Shown piece by piece: positions 23,968-28,470 of a DNA stretch of 34,023 nt. Each line of letters begins with the position of its first letter. The first letter of the stretch is position 1. The notes under the pieces were generated by a model. That model saw nothing but the letters and a program-made list of their open reading frames with translations, did not search any database and was not told where the DNA came from. The translations under genes and the position numbers were made by a program. The DNA comes from an uncultured Pseudomonadota bacterium (GTDB lineage Bacteria; Pseudomonadota; Gammaproteobacteria; Methylococcales; Methylomonadaceae): NCBI GenBank assembly GCA_903876445.1, contig CAIQZX010000145.1:1-34023 (forward strand), in the 5' to 3' direction.

Positions 23968-24456
23968 ATGAAAAAAAGTGTCTTACAACGCTACTGTTTA
24001 ATATCACAATTTGTTTTATGTTTTTTGTTTTTTAGCCTGAATGCTCATGCTGAAATCGAAGTTTATCAATTTGCCTCACCAGAAATTGAACTGCGTTATC
24101 AAACCTTAACCGAAGAATTACGTTGTTTAGTTTGTCAAAATCAAAACATCGCGGATTCACATGCCGAACTCGCTCAAGATTTACGCCGTAAAGTTTATGA
24201 AAAACTCAATTTAGGTGAAACCAACGAACAAATTATTGATTACATGACAGAACGTTATGGTGATTTTGTGTTATATCGCCCACCATTTAACGCTAGAACG
24301 TTGATTTTATGGCTTGCGCCAATTTTAACATTGTTAATCGGGGCGATAGGTTTCTGGTCATTACTCAAACGCCGCAAAAATTCAGAACCCGAATTATCTG
24401 CGAGTGAATTCGAGCGTCTTAATACATTGTTACGGGCAAGAGGAGATAAATTATGA
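23968..24456 (+). CDS. ccmH: Cytochrome c-type biogenesis protein CcmH (CycL-type thioredoxin-like)
   Basis: CcmH is a membrane-anchored periplasmic thiol protein that reduces apocytochrome c before heme attachment. The redox motif LRCLVCQNQNIADS has C53 and C56, and the conserved start is a signal peptide (about 1-28, ending NAHA). The segment RYGDFVLYRPPFN precedes a single C-terminal membrane helix (about 109-127). The frame can be read from a TTG at 23950, but the ATG at 23968 starts a proper signal peptide. The 162-aa length fits the short CcmH form, with CcmI supplied separately by the next gene (ATGA overlap). Confidence 0.93.
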   Translation: MKKSVLQRYCLISQFVLCFLFFSLNAHAEIEVYQFASPEIELRYQTLTEELRCLVCQNQNIADSHAELAQDLRRKVYEKLNLGETNEQIIDYMTERYGDFVLYRPPFNARTLILWLAPILTLLIGAIGFWSLLKRRKNSEPELSASEFERLNTLLRARGDKL

Positions 24457-25697
24457 TTCAATTTGGCATTTTTGTCGCGATACTAATTGCTATCGCCTTA
24501 TGTTTTGTGTTGATTCCATTGTGGTTAAAACCAAAGATTGTTCAAAATGATGATACGCAAACTAACATTCAATTAGCTCAACAGAAATTGCAAGCGTTAG
24601 AAACGGATTTAGAAAATGGAGTAATTACCGAGACGCAATACGAGCCATTGAAAAATGAACTCATGCTAAATTTACATCGCGATTTACAGCATATTCCTGT
24701 TTCTTTAAATACGACAAATTCTGAATCTAAAGGTCGTTGGCTGGCTATTCCACTCGGTGTTTTTATGCCATTACTCGCGTTAGCGTTATACAGTGTGAAA
24801 GGTGATTTGCGTGCTTTTGACGAAGTCGCCGTTAAAGGCGAAATCGCGACAAAACCCTCCGCCGCCGATATTAACGGAATGGTTGATAAACTAGCACAAC
24901 GAATGAAAGATGATCCAACTGATTCACAAGGTTGGATTATGTTGTCGCGTTCATACAAAGTTTTGAAACGTTATCCCGAAGCTGTTGAAGCGATGCGGAA
25001 AGCCCGCACAATTTTGGGCGATGAACCTGAAACACTGTTGCAATTAGCAGATGTCATTGCTATGTCAAATGGCGGTACGCTACAAGGCGAACCTACGACT
25101 TTAATTACTAGAGCGTTGGAACTCGACGCTAATAACGACATGGGACTATGGTTAAATGGTTTGGCGAATGCTGAAGCAGGGAAATTCAATGAAGCGATTG
25201 CTTCATGGGAAAAATTCCAAACACATTACAAACCCGAAGATGCCGATTATCAAGAAGTTGCGGGTTTAATCAATCAAGCGAAAGAAGCATTAGGGCAAAA
25301 TCTGACACCGCTAGCAAAAGTGAAATCGGAAACAAAAATAACAGACAATAAAGGCATTCGTGTTTCTGTTATGTTGGATAAGAAATTTGAATCTGAAGCA
25401 AGCCCTGAAGATGTTGTTTTCATTTACGCACAGCCCGCTCAAGGCGGAAAGATGCCGTTAGCTGTCGTCAAAAAACAAGTTAAAGATTTGCCATTAGAAA
25501 TAACGCTCGATGACAGCATGGCAATGATGCCAGCAATGACGATTTCATCAGTCGCTAATGTACAACTTAGCGCGAGAATTAGTCGTTCTGGTAACGCTAT
25601 CGCTCAAGCGGGCGAGCCAATTGGTAAAAAACAAGTTTCAACAGCCATTGATAACGGTGTGATTAGTTTGGTAATTGATGACAATGTTTCAAATTAG
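24453..25697 (+). CDS. ccmI: Cytochrome c-type biogenesis protein CcmI (CycH)
   Basis: CcmI delivers apocytochrome c to the heme-ligation machinery. The 414-aa protein has two membrane helices (about 3-24 and 95-113) with a cytoplasmic loop between. A periplasmic TPR domain (about 130-275) follows, then the C-terminal beta-rich domain of full-length CcmI (from about 290). It overlaps ccmH by ATGA. The rest of the system (ccmABCDEFG) is not in the window, so this pair is split from a main locus elsewhere, or the window cuts a dispersed arrangement. Confidence 0.92.
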   Translation: MIQFGIFVAILIAIALCFVLIPLWLKPKIVQNDDTQTNIQLAQQKLQALETDLENGVITETQYEPLKNELMLNLHRDLQHIPVSLNTTNSESKGRWLAIPLGVFMPLLALALYSVKGDLRAFDEVAVKGEIATKPSAADINGMVDKLAQRMKDDPTDSQGWIMLSRSYKVLKRYPEAVEAMRKARTILGDEPETLLQLADVIAMSNGGTLQGEPTTLITRALELDANNDMGLWLNGLANAEAGKFNEAIASWEKFQTHYKPEDADYQEVAGLINQAKEALGQNLTPLAKVKSETKITDNKGIRVSVMLDKKFESEASPEDVVFIYAQPAQGGKMPLAVVKKQVKDLPLEITLDDSMAMMPAMTISSVANVQLSARISRSGNAIAQAGEPIGKKQVSTAIDNGVISLVIDDNVSN

Positions 25698-25709
25698 GAG
25701 CTTTACGCG

Positions 25710-26333
25710 ATGAGCAGAGGAAAATTTATCACATTTGAAGGTGGCGAAGGCGTTGGTAAAACGACGAATGTTGCCTTTGTAGAAAATTATTTGAAAGCCC
25801 GTCAAATTCCTGTTGTTGTTACACGGGAACCGGGTGGAACAGCGTTAGCAGAAAAATTACGCTCATTATTACTTGATAAAAAAACCGAACTAATCGCCGA
25901 AGAAGCAGAATTATTGTTGATGTTTGCCGCTAGAGCGCAACACTTAAAACACGTTATTGAACCGGCTTTAGCGCGAGGTGATTGGGTAATTTGCGATCGA
26001 TTTACCGATGCAACGTATGCGTATCAAGGTGGAGGACGAAATATGAAAATTAAAACCATTGAATGGTTAGAAAATTTAGTTCAAGGAAATTTACGTCCCG
26101 ATTTAACTCTTTTACTTGATGCACCGGTGAGAATTGGAATTGAACGCGCTCGAAAACGTGGCGCATTTGACCGTTTTGAATCAGAAACCGTGCAGTTTTT
26201 TGAGGATGTTCGTCGCGCCTATTTGTTACAAGCCGAAATCAATCCCAAGCGAATTAAACTTATCAAAGCGAACCAACCTTTAGCGGATGTTCAACAAATA
26301 ATTATCAGTGTATTAAGTCCTTTGTTACGGTGA
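25710..26333 (+). CDS. tmk: Thymidylate kinase
   Basis: Tmk phosphorylates dTMP to dTDP in the cytoplasm. The 207-aa protein has the P-loop GEGVGKTT (12-19), the DRF motif with TDATYAYQGGGR (about 93-108) and a LID region RARKRGAFDRFE with arginines as in the E. coli-type enzyme. It follows ccmI by 12 bp behind a GGAG ribosome site. holB, which often follows tmk, is absent; the next region is non-coding. Confidence 0.95.
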   Translation: MSRGKFITFEGGEGVGKTTNVAFVENYLKARQIPVVVTREPGGTALAEKLRSLLLDKKTELIAEEAELLLMFAARAQHLKHVIEPALARGDWVICDRFTDATYAYQGGGRNMKIKTIEWLENLVQGNLRPDLTLLLDAPVRIGIERARKRGAFDRFESETVQFFEDVRRAYLLQAEINPKRIKLIKANQPLADVQQIIISVLSPLLR

Positions 26334-26342
26334 ATTTCAGGC

Positions 26343-26372
26343 AAAAAAAAGACGACTTAATGGCAAGTCGTC
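26343..26372 (-). terminator. Strong Rho-independent terminator facing the minus strand
   Basis: GACGACTT (26351-26358) and AAGTCGTC (26365-26372) form an 8-bp stem with a 6-nt loop. Eight A residues (26343-26350) become a T8 tract on the minus strand. No annotated minus-strand gene lies upstream of it. On the plus strand the stem has no T tract, so it does not look like the tmk terminator. Confidence 0.75.
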
Positions 26373-26450
26373 CGAGGTATTAGGAAGGATATAACACACA
26401 ACTTTAGCTATCAGCTACGAAAAAAATAGTTTAAAACATATAAGTTGTTT
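26351..26450 (-). ncRNA. Candidate small RNA ending at the minus-strand terminator
   Basis: Reading the minus strand toward the terminator, the sequence has a small TAGCT-GAT-AGCTA hairpin. It then has an unstructured, C-rich stretch (CCTTCCTAATACCTC) complementary to Shine-Dalgarno-like sequence, and then the terminator stem and T tract. That is the plan of many trans-acting sRNAs that mask ribosome sites. The 5' end is uncertain: only a weak promoter (TTGAAA around 26441-26451 on the minus strand) is visible. Start and size are estimates. Confidence 0.4.
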
Positions 26451-26481
26451 CAATCATACCAATAAAAAATGGTTCCGGGAA

Positions 26482-26498
26482 TGCGACAAATTGTCGCA
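26482..26498 (+). promoter_or_regulatory. RegA/PrrA-type binding palindrome upstream of regB
   Basis: TGCGACA-AAT-TGTCGCA is a perfect 7-bp inverted repeat with a 3-nt centre. It matches the published RegA-type consensus GNGRCRTTNNGNCGC at all fixed positions except the two central Ts. It lies 57 bp before the preferred regB start, so it suggests autoregulation of the regBA pair by RegA. The palindrome is observed; the identity of the binding protein is inferred. Confidence 0.55.
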
Positions 26499-26555
26499 GG
26501 CAAATTCTCAAGAATCAATTTACACTATTCGCAATTCAATTTTTGCGAGCCTTTC

Positions 26556-27932
26556 ATGTTTTCTTACGTTGCTTCTAAGTCCGAATTATCTGTTCGGCAA
26601 AATTTAAAATGGCTTTTTGTATTACGAAATTTAATGCTATTTAGCGAAGCCTTTTTGATTTTTCTTACTGTTTATGGTCTGCAAATTCAATTACCACAAC
26701 GCCCATTATGGTGGATTGTGGCAAGTATTGCAGCTGTTAATATCTACACTTGGCTACGTTTACAAGACGCAAGTCCCGTTACGACACAAGAAATTTTCCT
26801 CCAACTTGTTTTAGATGTTATTGCAATCACAGCATTACTTTATCCTACAGGTGGCGCATCAAATCCCATTATCTGGGTTTATTTATTGCCGTTAATGATT
26901 ACTGCCATTATGTTACCGCCAACGTATGCGTGGTACATGGTCATCTTAACTACCTCGATGTACACAATGTTAATGCTTTATAACATTCCATTACCATCCA
27001 TTGCGCCACATTTAAGTCATACATCAAGTATCGATTTCTCAGGTATGGCACATTTGGAATCCATCGATTTAGAACACGCATTAAACGATAAAAATTATTT
27101 TAATTTGCACATTTTTGGTATGTGGTTTGGATTTGTATTTAGTGCCGGCTTGGTTGCTTTTTTCGTCGTTGAGTTAGCGAAAACGTTAAAAATTCGTGAA
27201 CGGAGTCTAGCAGAAGCTCGAGAAAATGCGTTACGAAATGAACGTGTTGTCGCATTAGGAACTTTAGCAGCAAGTGCCGCACATGATATGGGAACGCCAC
27301 TTGGAACAATGGCAATTATCACGCATGAACTCATACAAGATTACTCATACTGCAATCATCCCGATTTATACGAAAAAATAATAATTATCGAAGAGCAAAT
27401 CAATCGATGCAAAGAAGCGTTATCCGTTATGTCCGCGTCTGCTGGTGAAATGCGAGCGGAATCGGGAAATGTTATGGCATTGAGTGAGTATTTAGATGAC
27501 GTAATTAAACAATGGCGCACGCACAAAGCCGGCACAAAATTAAATTTCTTCATAGACATTGATGTGAATATGAACGCCGAAATTATTGCTGAAAGAACAT
27601 TGACACATTCACTTATTAACATTTTGAACAACGCCGCCGAAGCAACAAATCCAGATTTGGGAATTGAATTTCATGCTGTTTGGGACTGTCAATTTGTGAC
27701 TATTAAAATTTGTGATTTTGGTACCGGCTTTCCAGAAGGTTTAATTGAATTTGCCGGTCAACAACCCGTGATGAGCAGTAAACATGGTTTGGGTGTCGGC
27801 TTATTTTTAACCTGTTCAACTGTACAGCGTTTAGGCGGCAAAATTGAATTCACTAATCGTCTTCAGGGTGGCGCGGAAGTGATTATCACCTTACCTTTAT
27901 TAACGAATGAGACTGGAAATGACAACTGTTGA
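26556..27932 (+). CDS. regB: Redox sensor histidine kinase, RegB/PrrB/RoxS type
   Basis: RegB-type kinases sense the respiratory redox state through membrane quinones and a cytoplasmic cysteine. The 458-aa product from the ATG at 26556 has about six membrane helices. The quinone-binding motif is GGASNP (99-104, family GGxxNP), and the H-box AHDMGTPLGT carries His243. The conserved redox Cys285 (in INRCKEAL) and the ATPase motifs NILNNAAEA and GLGVGLFL follow. The open frame extends to 26469, but that extra stretch would cover the RegA-type palindrome and lacks a ribosome site, so I reject it. The gene overlaps regA. Targets are usually respiration, carbon or nitrogen metabolism genes. Confidence 0.92.
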   Translation: MFSYVASKSELSVRQNLKWLFVLRNLMLFSEAFLIFLTVYGLQIQLPQRPLWWIVASIAAVNIYTWLRLQDASPVTTQEIFLQLVLDVIAITALLYPTGGASNPIIWVYLLPLMITAIMLPPTYAWYMVILTTSMYTMLMLYNIPLPSIAPHLSHTSSIDFSGMAHLESIDLEHALNDKNYFNLHIFGMWFGFVFSAGLVAFFVVELAKTLKIRERSLAEARENALRNERVVALGTLAASAAHDMGTPLGTMAIITHELIQDYSYCNHPDLYEKIIIIEEQINRCKEALSVMSASAGEMRAESGNVMALSEYLDDVIKQWRTHKAGTKLNFFIDIDVNMNAEIIAERTLTHSLINILNNAAEATNPDLGIEFHAVWDCQFVTIKICDFGTGFPEGLIEFAGQQPVMSSKHGLGVGLFLTCSTVQRLGGKIEFTNRLQGGAEVIITLPLLTNETGNDNC

Positions 27933-28470
27933 AGAACTCGATAAACCACGATTGTTACTGGTTGATGATGACAAAACTTTTTGTAAAGTTTTAAAAAGTG
28001 CGCTGGAAAAACGAGATTATGACGTTTTAGTGGCTTACGATGTGGCATCGGGCATTACGCTTGCGGAACAAAATTTTCCGGAATATGCCGTGATTGATTT
28101 GCGAATTGGTTTGGAATCGGGTTTGGAATTAGTAAAAAAATTGATTTCTCTCGATAACAATACGCGAATTGTTATGTTGACAGGTTTTGCGAGTATTGCC
28201 ACCGCTGTTGAAGCAATTAAATTAGGAGCGACGCATTATTTAACAAAACCCGCAAATGCAGATGAAATTGTCACTGCATTACTAAAAAATGAAGGCGATA
28301 CATCTACAACAATTAGTGATGTGCCGTTATCGGTAAAGCGTTTGGAATGGGAGCATCTGCAAAAAGTATTGATGCAGCATGAAGGAAATATCTCCGCAGC
28401 GGCGCGGGCTTTAAATATGCACCGTCGTTCATTACAACGAAAATTAGATAAACATCCCGTACAATCCTAA
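27919..28470 (+). CDS. regA: Redox response regulator, RegA/PrrA/RoxR type
   Basis: The 183-aa regulator has an N-terminal receiver domain: acidic pocket VDDD (about 15-18), phospho-acceptor Asp in VIDLRIGLESG, Thr in MLTGFAS and Lys in LTKPA. It ends in a Fis-type helix-turn-helix, EGNISAAARALNMHRRSLQRKL, whose NMHRRSLQRKL recognition helix is a RegA hallmark. Two starts are possible, ATG at 27907 or 27919. I use 27919, which has a better-spaced purine-rich stretch, while the earlier start has none. It overlaps the end of regB, so the two are co-translated. Confidence 0.93.
   Translation: MTTVEELDKPRLLLVDDDKTFCKVLKSALEKRDYDVLVAYDVASGITLAEQNFPEYAVIDLRIGLESGLELVKKLISLDNNTRIVMLTGFASIATAVEAIKLGATHYLTKPANADEIVTALLKNEGDTSTTISDVPLSVKRLEWEHLQKVLMQHEGNISAAARALNMHRRSLQRKLDKHPVQS

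Follow-up and report, generated by a model that had tools for sequence, protein, structure and literature searches.

The small RNAs (sRNAs) closest in build to the locus reported here belong to the alpha-R8 family, which includes MmgR of S. meliloti and SisA-D of C. crescentus. According to the accessible part of PMC12559287, alpha-R8 RNAs carry a weak hairpin, an exposed anti-Shine-Dalgarno 10-mer (UUUCCUCCCU) and a terminator, and occur as sibling copies, some of them adjacent; the Qrr sRNAs of Vibrio are described there as dispersed, co-regulated siblings. In Rhodobacter sphaeroides, the sRNAs PcrZ and PcrX are regulated by PrrA, the counterpart of RegA, together with AppA and FnrL (excerpts of PMC8307010), and in E. 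coli FnrS is a repressor sRNA driven by the redox regulator FNR (excerpts of PMC4263372).

For gammaproteobacterial methanotrophs, no natural base-pairing sRNA is described among the best-ranked open-access matches to a literature search, and no description of the RNA presented here was found among the best-ranked open-access matches on methanotroph small RNAs. The Methylomonas sp. DH-1 transcriptome paper names only rnpB, 6S, SRP RNA and tmRNA in its available sections (PMC6373157), and the sRNA of PMC7720504 is, in the sections at hand, a synthetic one. Small RNA terms appear in PMC10992012 in the reference list only, and the terms sRNA and small RNA are absent from the main text of PMC13274454.

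The locus, designated class I, lies in the window, i.e., the whole 34,023-nucleotide stretch of an uncultured Methylomonadaceae genome that was analysed. Judged from its sequence, it is well supported as a free-standing small regulatory RNA gene on the minus strand in methane-oxidising bacteria. The features of the locus and its neighbourhood are as follows.

24453-25697, plus strand: ccmI, cytochrome c biogenesis
25710-26333, plus strand: tmk
26446..26343, minus strand: predicted class I sRNA of about 104 nt, 5′ end ±3 nt as deduced from the -10; covariance model R1 gives 72.3 bits at 26343-26450, a score that is not independent, the window being among the 46 sequences (alignment A2) from which R1 was built
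26343..26373, minus strand: intrinsic terminator with T8 (scan, fold, helix covariation)
26380..26395, minus strand: single-stranded core GTTATATCCTTCCTAA, presumed seed (conservation, unpaired probability)
26399..26447, minus strand: 5′ stem, CAACTT (26447-26442) with AAGTTG (26404-26399) (RNA fold; both arms in the genus alignment)
26417-26405, minus strand: small hairpin TAGCTGATAGCTA enclosed by the 5′ stem (RNA fold)
26453..26458, minus strand: hexamer TATGAT of the extended -10 TGG-TATGAT, at fixed spacing to the box
26481..26498, minus strand: palindromic box TGCGACAATTTGTCGCAT of RegA/PrrA type in the stretch that separates regB from the sRNA; found in each of the 63 distinct class I loci
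26556..27932, plus strand: regB, sensor kinase; best NCBIfam match NF033792 (ActS/PrrB/RegB), 195.5 bits, below the cut-off of 350
27907..28470, plus strand: regA, response regulator with Fis-type HTH (Pfam Response_reg and HTH_8); best NCBIfam match NF033791 (ActR/PrrA/RegA), 182.2 bits, below the cut-off of 250

Like the alpha-R8 RNAs, the class I RNA is predicted to combine a weak 5′ hairpin, an exposed C-rich core and a terminator, and it has several sibling copies, some adjacent. In contrast, its core reads UAUAUCCUUCCUAA in place of the alpha-R8 10-mer, it is gammaproteobacterial, and it shares a promoter box with its siblings (class II), whereas the portion of PMC12559287 available describes no conserved promoter motif for SisA-D.

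The first-pass annotation of this DNA had proposed Rfam and homology searches; the latter returned homologues at family scale, while no Rfam family reached its gathering score in the window. The nearest family, RF00519 (suhB/MmgR, alpha-R8), scored 22.5 bits over the full model against a gathering score of 41. It exceeded 41 bits in none of 121 Methylococcales genomes, the best match (37.1 bits) falling on a class I locus of a Methyloglobulus genome (G034). Class I loci accounted for 18 of the 105 suhB matches listed for the 121 genomes, including the top one; as matches at E ≤ 0.1 also occurred in 7 of 14 control genomes, the weak ones mean little. Since both the gathering score and the 10-mer were lacking, membership of alpha-R8 was rejected and the family was kept as the closest architecture: the class I RNA resembles it in build and, by analogy, may work likewise.

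The control proposed below for class I is of the kind described for PcrZ and PcrX, which to our knowledge are not encoded next to prrBA. Its proposed part, that of a repressor sRNA driven by a redox regulator, resembles that of FnrS. However, FnrS is driven by FNR, whereas class I lies behind a RegA-type box and has no counterpart at gathering score in the Rfam library searched, which we presume includes FnrS. Dispersed siblings under common control would also recall the Qrr sRNAs, whose regulator and promoter type differ from those of class I.

The terminator occupies 26373-26350 of the minus strand, with stem arms GGACGACTT and AAGTCGTCT, a loop between them and a T8 run (26350-26343) whose first T belongs to the stem as well. 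The terminator scan gave a stem of 10 pairs, 4 of them G-C, and the RNA fold likewise gave 10 pairs; a stem containing G+C followed by a U run is the makeup of an intrinsic terminator. The C-rich 15-mer CCTTCCTAATACCTC (26388-26374, minus strand) ends beside the stem at 26373, and no minus-strand ORF of at least 60 aa overlaps 26343-26450. These observations agree with the first-pass annotation, which had described a minus-strand terminator with T8 in a gap free of minus-strand genes and a C-rich stretch just before it. The region 25000-28000 contains two terminator-like sites against a mean of 3.1 in shuffled sequences, so the terminator alone is within chance, and conservation was taken as evidence instead. 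The fold of the 108-nt minus strand gave a z-score of −3.19 against shuffles (1 of 200 as good), and that of the plus strand, where these inverted repeats are equally present, was weaker (z = −2.32; 6 of 200 as good).

What decides the case is that sequence far outside the hairpin is conserved. The conserved feature extends upstream past the interval originally marked, up to the box at 26498, and includes elements absent from the earlier description: the upstream box, a fixed promoter geometry, a sibling class and the 5′ stem-loop. A lack of conservation outside the hairpin had been named beforehand among the grounds for abandoning the sRNA call; such conservation is present, and the call is not refuted on this ground. 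The further claim of an sRNA gene adjoining redox genes is likewise supported, with ccmI, regB and regA nearby and sequence kept far outside the hairpin.

In the terminator helix, 6 of 7 pairs showed changes on both sides. The whole structure had a covariation score of 0.291; shuffles gave 0.186, none of the 500 reaching the observed value, and slid partners gave at most 0.107. Among 30 sequences from other genera, 9 pairs changed on both sides; in the inner hairpin of the 5′ stem this held for all 5 pairs, with 81% of cells paired. The genus of the window carries a different small hairpin inside the 5′ stem than the other genera do. Pairing of the outer 5′ helix in 98.7% of cells is weak evidence, as the extraction patterns fixed much of both arms, and for the same reason the outer-arm pair counts in alignments A2 and A3 are not independent.

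Invariance of the core in A2 and A3 was rejected as evidence, the loci having been picked by pattern: an exact 21-base pattern predetermined the core along with the 3′ arm of the 5′ stem, while the 5′ arm was set by a second pattern. Conservation of the core was therefore judged from the genus loci and the model matches only. The genus loci, for which DNA similarity was the sole criterion, kept both outer arms, with CAACAT for CAACTT in L011, L013, L021 and L022, and 15 of the 16 (L009-L024) retained TTATATCCTTCCTA, L023 being one base off. The middle of the core varies in R1 matches from several other genera (UAUAUUUCUUCCUA, UAUAUCACUCCUAA and others). Over the 46 sequences, CCTTCCTA had a mean unpaired probability of 0.92. 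Like a base-pairing sRNA gene, the sequence thus has its own predicted promoter and terminator and a conserved unpaired core, and lacks ORF conservation.

The 136-bp stretch containing the locus is single-copy in its own genome, where the other 15 matches had E ≥ 0.33. Strong matches (E < 1e-14) were found in 16 of 17 genomes of the same genus; in the exception (G015), regA lies at base 890 of its contig, and the upstream region may therefore be off the contig. The 21-base core pattern returned 46 stretches in the named genome collection, and the genera named among them are all methanotrophs: Methylovulum, Methylobacter, Methyloglobulus, Methylicorpusculum, Methylocucumis and Methylomicrobium. 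The laboratory methanotrophs Methylovulum miyakonense and Methyloglobulus morosus are among the carriers. These bacteria oxidise methane before it escapes from lakes and wetlands.

At E ≤ 0.001, R1 matched 155 of 237 genomes of the family, which we take to be the GTDB family Methylomonadaceae, including 122 of 173 good-quality genomes and 26 of 29 genera; at E ≤ 2e-6, 144 family genomes and 20 of 29 genera were matched. Weak matches only (E from 1.9e-5 to 0.001) were obtained in 11 of the 155, of which at least three (G023, G026, G302) belong by inspection to the sibling class. The weak match in G108 resembles class I. Outside the family, R1 found nothing in an order sample of 161 genomes (E ≤ 0.01), where all 70 matches were to family members, nor in a class sample of 369 genomes, where the two matches were to the window genome and another family member; both searches used stricter filters, which lose some weak matches.

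The box TGCGACAATNTGYCRCAT lies upstream of the RNA in all 63 distinct loci of class I that had been chosen by core patterns, 61 times exactly and twice with a single mismatch. Among 21 class I places taken from model matches and not chosen by core, 19 had the exact box and 2 a box with one mismatch. In 329 control slices it never occurred with one mismatch or fewer, and 2 slices contained it at two mismatches. Exactly 22 bp separate the 3′ end of the box from the -10 hexamer in 46 of the 47 loci compared, and the TG extension of the -10 was found in 45 of the 47. This fixed geometry places the centre of the box at about -43 and suggests a transcript start near 26446 in the window. The -35 element is weak by eye.

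Compared by hand with the degenerate motifs given in the available part of PMC5506826, the window box agrees at 15 of 15 positions with the R. capsulatus RegA motif SSGNVRDNHYSNCSS, at 14 of 15 with the RegR motif and at 11 of 12 with the PrrA motif. The commonest form of the box in the family, TGCGACAATATGTCACAT, agrees with the RegA motif at 14 of 15. In 8 genomes, a strict search for the box (at most one mismatch) gave 46 matches, or 40 distinct places with palindromes counted once, versus 3 for the reversed pattern; with palindromes counted on both strands, there were 3 to 9 matches per genome. When 28 box places, some overlapping, were taken as loci, 17 were matched by R1 or by R2, the model of the sibling class (E ≤ 0.1).

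The neighbouring two-component genes have the RegB/RegA arrangement, a regulator with receiver and Fis-type HTH domains lying directly downstream of the kinase. The ATG at 26469 is probably a wrong start for regB, given that homologues begin at the Met at 26556; the ORF from 26469 would cross the box. At the quinone-site position, the kinase reads GGASNP followed by I (by eye); the motif given in the accessible text of PMC8191878 is GGXXNPF, ending in F. A RegA orthologue was found in 223 of 237 family genomes and 170 of 173 good-quality ones, i.e., in 68 more genomes than had R1 matches, making RegA the more widespread of the two.

Based on places copied by hand from a printed listing, a regA orthologue is divergent from the sRNA and within 2.6 kb of it in 88 of 112 genomes (88 of 111 without G214, where the two are on different contigs). 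The remaining pairs comprise 14 on different contigs (13 without G214) and 10 elsewhere on the same contig. Presumably regB lies between the sRNA and the divergent regA across the family, as it does in the inspected loci. An hfq gene was present in each of the 20 genomes searched. Among 20 loci compared, tmk lies 3′ of the sRNA in the window only, which indicates that the locus is rearranged here; elsewhere this place is taken by a convergent lipoprotein-like or msrA-like gene (by eye).

With moderate confidence, we interpret class I as a new family of trans-acting base-pairing sRNAs that is controlled by RegA, assisted by Hfq and represses mRNAs. The RNA would be made from the minus strand, divergent from regBA, and RegA, bound to the box centred at about -43, would set the promoter together with the extended -10 and the weak -35, its most probable role being activation under a reduced quinone pool. 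In the predicted fold of the transcript, a stem-loop at the 5′ end is followed by the exposed core AUAUCCUUCCUAA and by a terminator that ends in U8. With the help of Hfq, the core would pair with A/G-rich translation-start regions of target mRNAs, leading to their repression. Encoded back-to-back with a redox sensor and behind an apparent control site of that system, the sRNA may relay redox signals to other genes.

RegA control is opposed by the presence of boxes in G023, a 98% complete genome with a class II sRNA and two boxes in which no RegA match was found at E ≤ 1e-30, by the occurrence of RegA in genomes without an R1 match, and by the scores of RegB and RegA below the NCBIfam cut-offs. 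A real sRNA whose box is bound by a different regulator, the regBA adjacency being inherited synteny, would account for G023 and also for five loci (L017, L018, L019, L024, L026) in which another gene stands in the place of regB and the box is kept. The box is, moreover, far stricter and rarer than the degenerate RegA/PrrA sites described; for At. ferrooxidans and R. sphaeroides, the published work, as far as its text was available, reports finding no simple binding consensus for RegA/PrrA. We treat a different regulator as a tentative alternative, somewhat on the unlikely side, as the window box agrees in full with the R. capsulatus RegA motif, degenerate as that motif is, and a divergent regA is conserved in a family where almost every good-quality genome has a RegA orthologue.

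The sign of the control could also be the reverse. With RegA as a repressor of the sRNA, a strain lacking RegA would contain more of the sRNA and less of its targets, TonB-dependent receptors being an example. RegA of Methylomonas sp. DH-1 binds the feo promoter, whereas its binding at the tbdr and tonB promoters is not appreciable; tbdr and tonB nonetheless fall in the regA deletion mutant, and the intermediary is, in the words available from the authors, not yet identified (PMC13274454). The alpha-R8 RNA SisA represses TonB-dependent receptor mRNAs (part of PMC12559287). The box of the loci studied here extends to about -35, a position at which polymerase can be blocked by a bound protein. 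Repression by RegA was nevertheless judged unlikely: activated promoters usually have a weak -35 and a fixed spacing from regulator box to -10, and class I shows this layout, with a weak -35 and constant spacing. Activation by RegA is the sign we prefer.

An sRNA could act as the intermediary of the indirect effects of RegA, and the sign would fit best if RegA repressed it. More speculatively, and with considerable doubt, RegB/RegA of type I methanotrophs might act post-transcriptionally through class I and its siblings as a co-regulated set, which would couple metal uptake, and perhaps methane oxidation, to the redox state of the quinones. The set might then be the intermediary still sought for genes that depend on RegA without being bound by it, such as those for the DH-1 TonB-dependent receptor and the tonB operon. 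If so, a family-wide set of sRNAs under a RegA-type box would give RegB/RegA a post-transcriptional arm, and the carrier of the indirect effects of RegA, an open question in 2026 in the accessible text of PMC13274454, would become directly testable.

The first-pass annotation had also read the C-rich stretch as masking Shine-Dalgarno sequences, and this part is unproven. In pairing with the 32 start regions of the window, the core had no advantage over versions with shuffled letters, 132 of 200 of which reached values as low. TAGGAAGGAT with an ATG within 12 nt occurred at 5 places in 20 genomes versus 11 for the control, i.e., without enrichment, and TTAGGAAG with an ATG within 12 nt occurred at 45 places in 6 genomes, fewer than the 79 of the control. 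One of the 45 (G131:C19) was the sRNA gene itself on the opposite strand; 15 had an ORF of at least 60 aa, and none of these was recurrent (blastp, E 1e-3). The target check suggested earlier for this stretch thus revealed neither enrichment near start codons nor a recurrent gene, which leaves the masking reading resting on resemblance.

A core that is conserved across many genera and for which no recurrent mRNA target emerged would suit an RNA that sequesters a protein or another RNA and does not pair with mRNAs. However, the core is C/U-rich and resembles an anti-Shine-Dalgarno sequence, and the alignment shows by eye no conserved GGA loop, the CsrA-type motif. A CsrA-type sponge was rejected on the latter ground, and sequestration in general appears improbable.

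It is hardly credible that the locus holds no regulatory RNA and is a bare terminator or encodes a short peptide: the terminator scan is at chance level and the core can be read as ...AESCVISFLI, but the promoter and box are conserved and the inner hairpin covaries. Moreover, 10 of 46 sequences lack any start-to-stop ORF within the RNA, the ORFs of the others span 4 to 21 codons, and one- and two-base indels in the core of other-genus model matches (by eye) would shift the frame. With neither start nor ORF length conserved, the peptide reading was rejected.

Under the preferred reading of class I as a RegA-controlled, base-pairing sRNA, its sibling class, which is preceded by one or two such boxes and shares much of the core, would probably overlap with it in targets. 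This second class was recognised from second-site R1 matches and has the order CAACTCTTGAGATGCA...AGAGTTTTATATCCTTC...terminator. Model R2 was built from 19 class II sequences of 17 genomes. In the class II terminator, 4 of 7 pairs showed changes on both sides; upstream, 14 of the 19 sequences had two or more boxes, 15 bp apart, and 5 had one box. Class II was present in the window genome and 17 others; of the 17 genomes behind R2, 12 also hold a class I place according to R1. The copy in the window genome (contig C133, L158 1375-1469, minus strand) lies between ksgA and pdxA (by eye) with a double box upstream and scored 33.0 bits with R2 (E = 2.7e-4 in the bases searched).

Tandem copies, each unit with its own box, were observed for both classes (among L135, L136, L117 and L125): class I units about 220 bp apart in G120 and G226, and class II units about 195 bp apart in G133 and G061. 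Two further box-preceded RNAs, L130 (G232:C2 20572-20652) and L132 (G268:C1 867797-867876), have a 5′ stem of yet another kind, the third (CAACTCA...), together with a CCTTC core, and were excluded from both R1 and R2.

Boxes were also seen in other settings. In the window genome, a one-mismatch box on contig C54 (L157 1501-1517) precedes pmoC (particulate methane monooxygenase, by eye) by 84 nt; a link to the pmoC promoter was set aside, as one-mismatch sites for that pattern occurred at control frequency (control 4+2) and the site may be due to chance. At about position 1501 of L156 (window genome) and L217 (G011), the box lies 24 and 36 nt, respectively, upstream of a multicopper oxidase-like gene (by eye). 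An array of about three boxes at about position 1501 of L160 (window genome) and L233 precedes a leader resembling the class II 5′ stem (CCAACTTGTGAG...) and then a small protein gene. Finally, at about position 1501 of L220 (G131), beside a PEP synthase-like gene (by eye), the box is followed by a strong hairpin and a T run, which hints at a possible third sRNA class.
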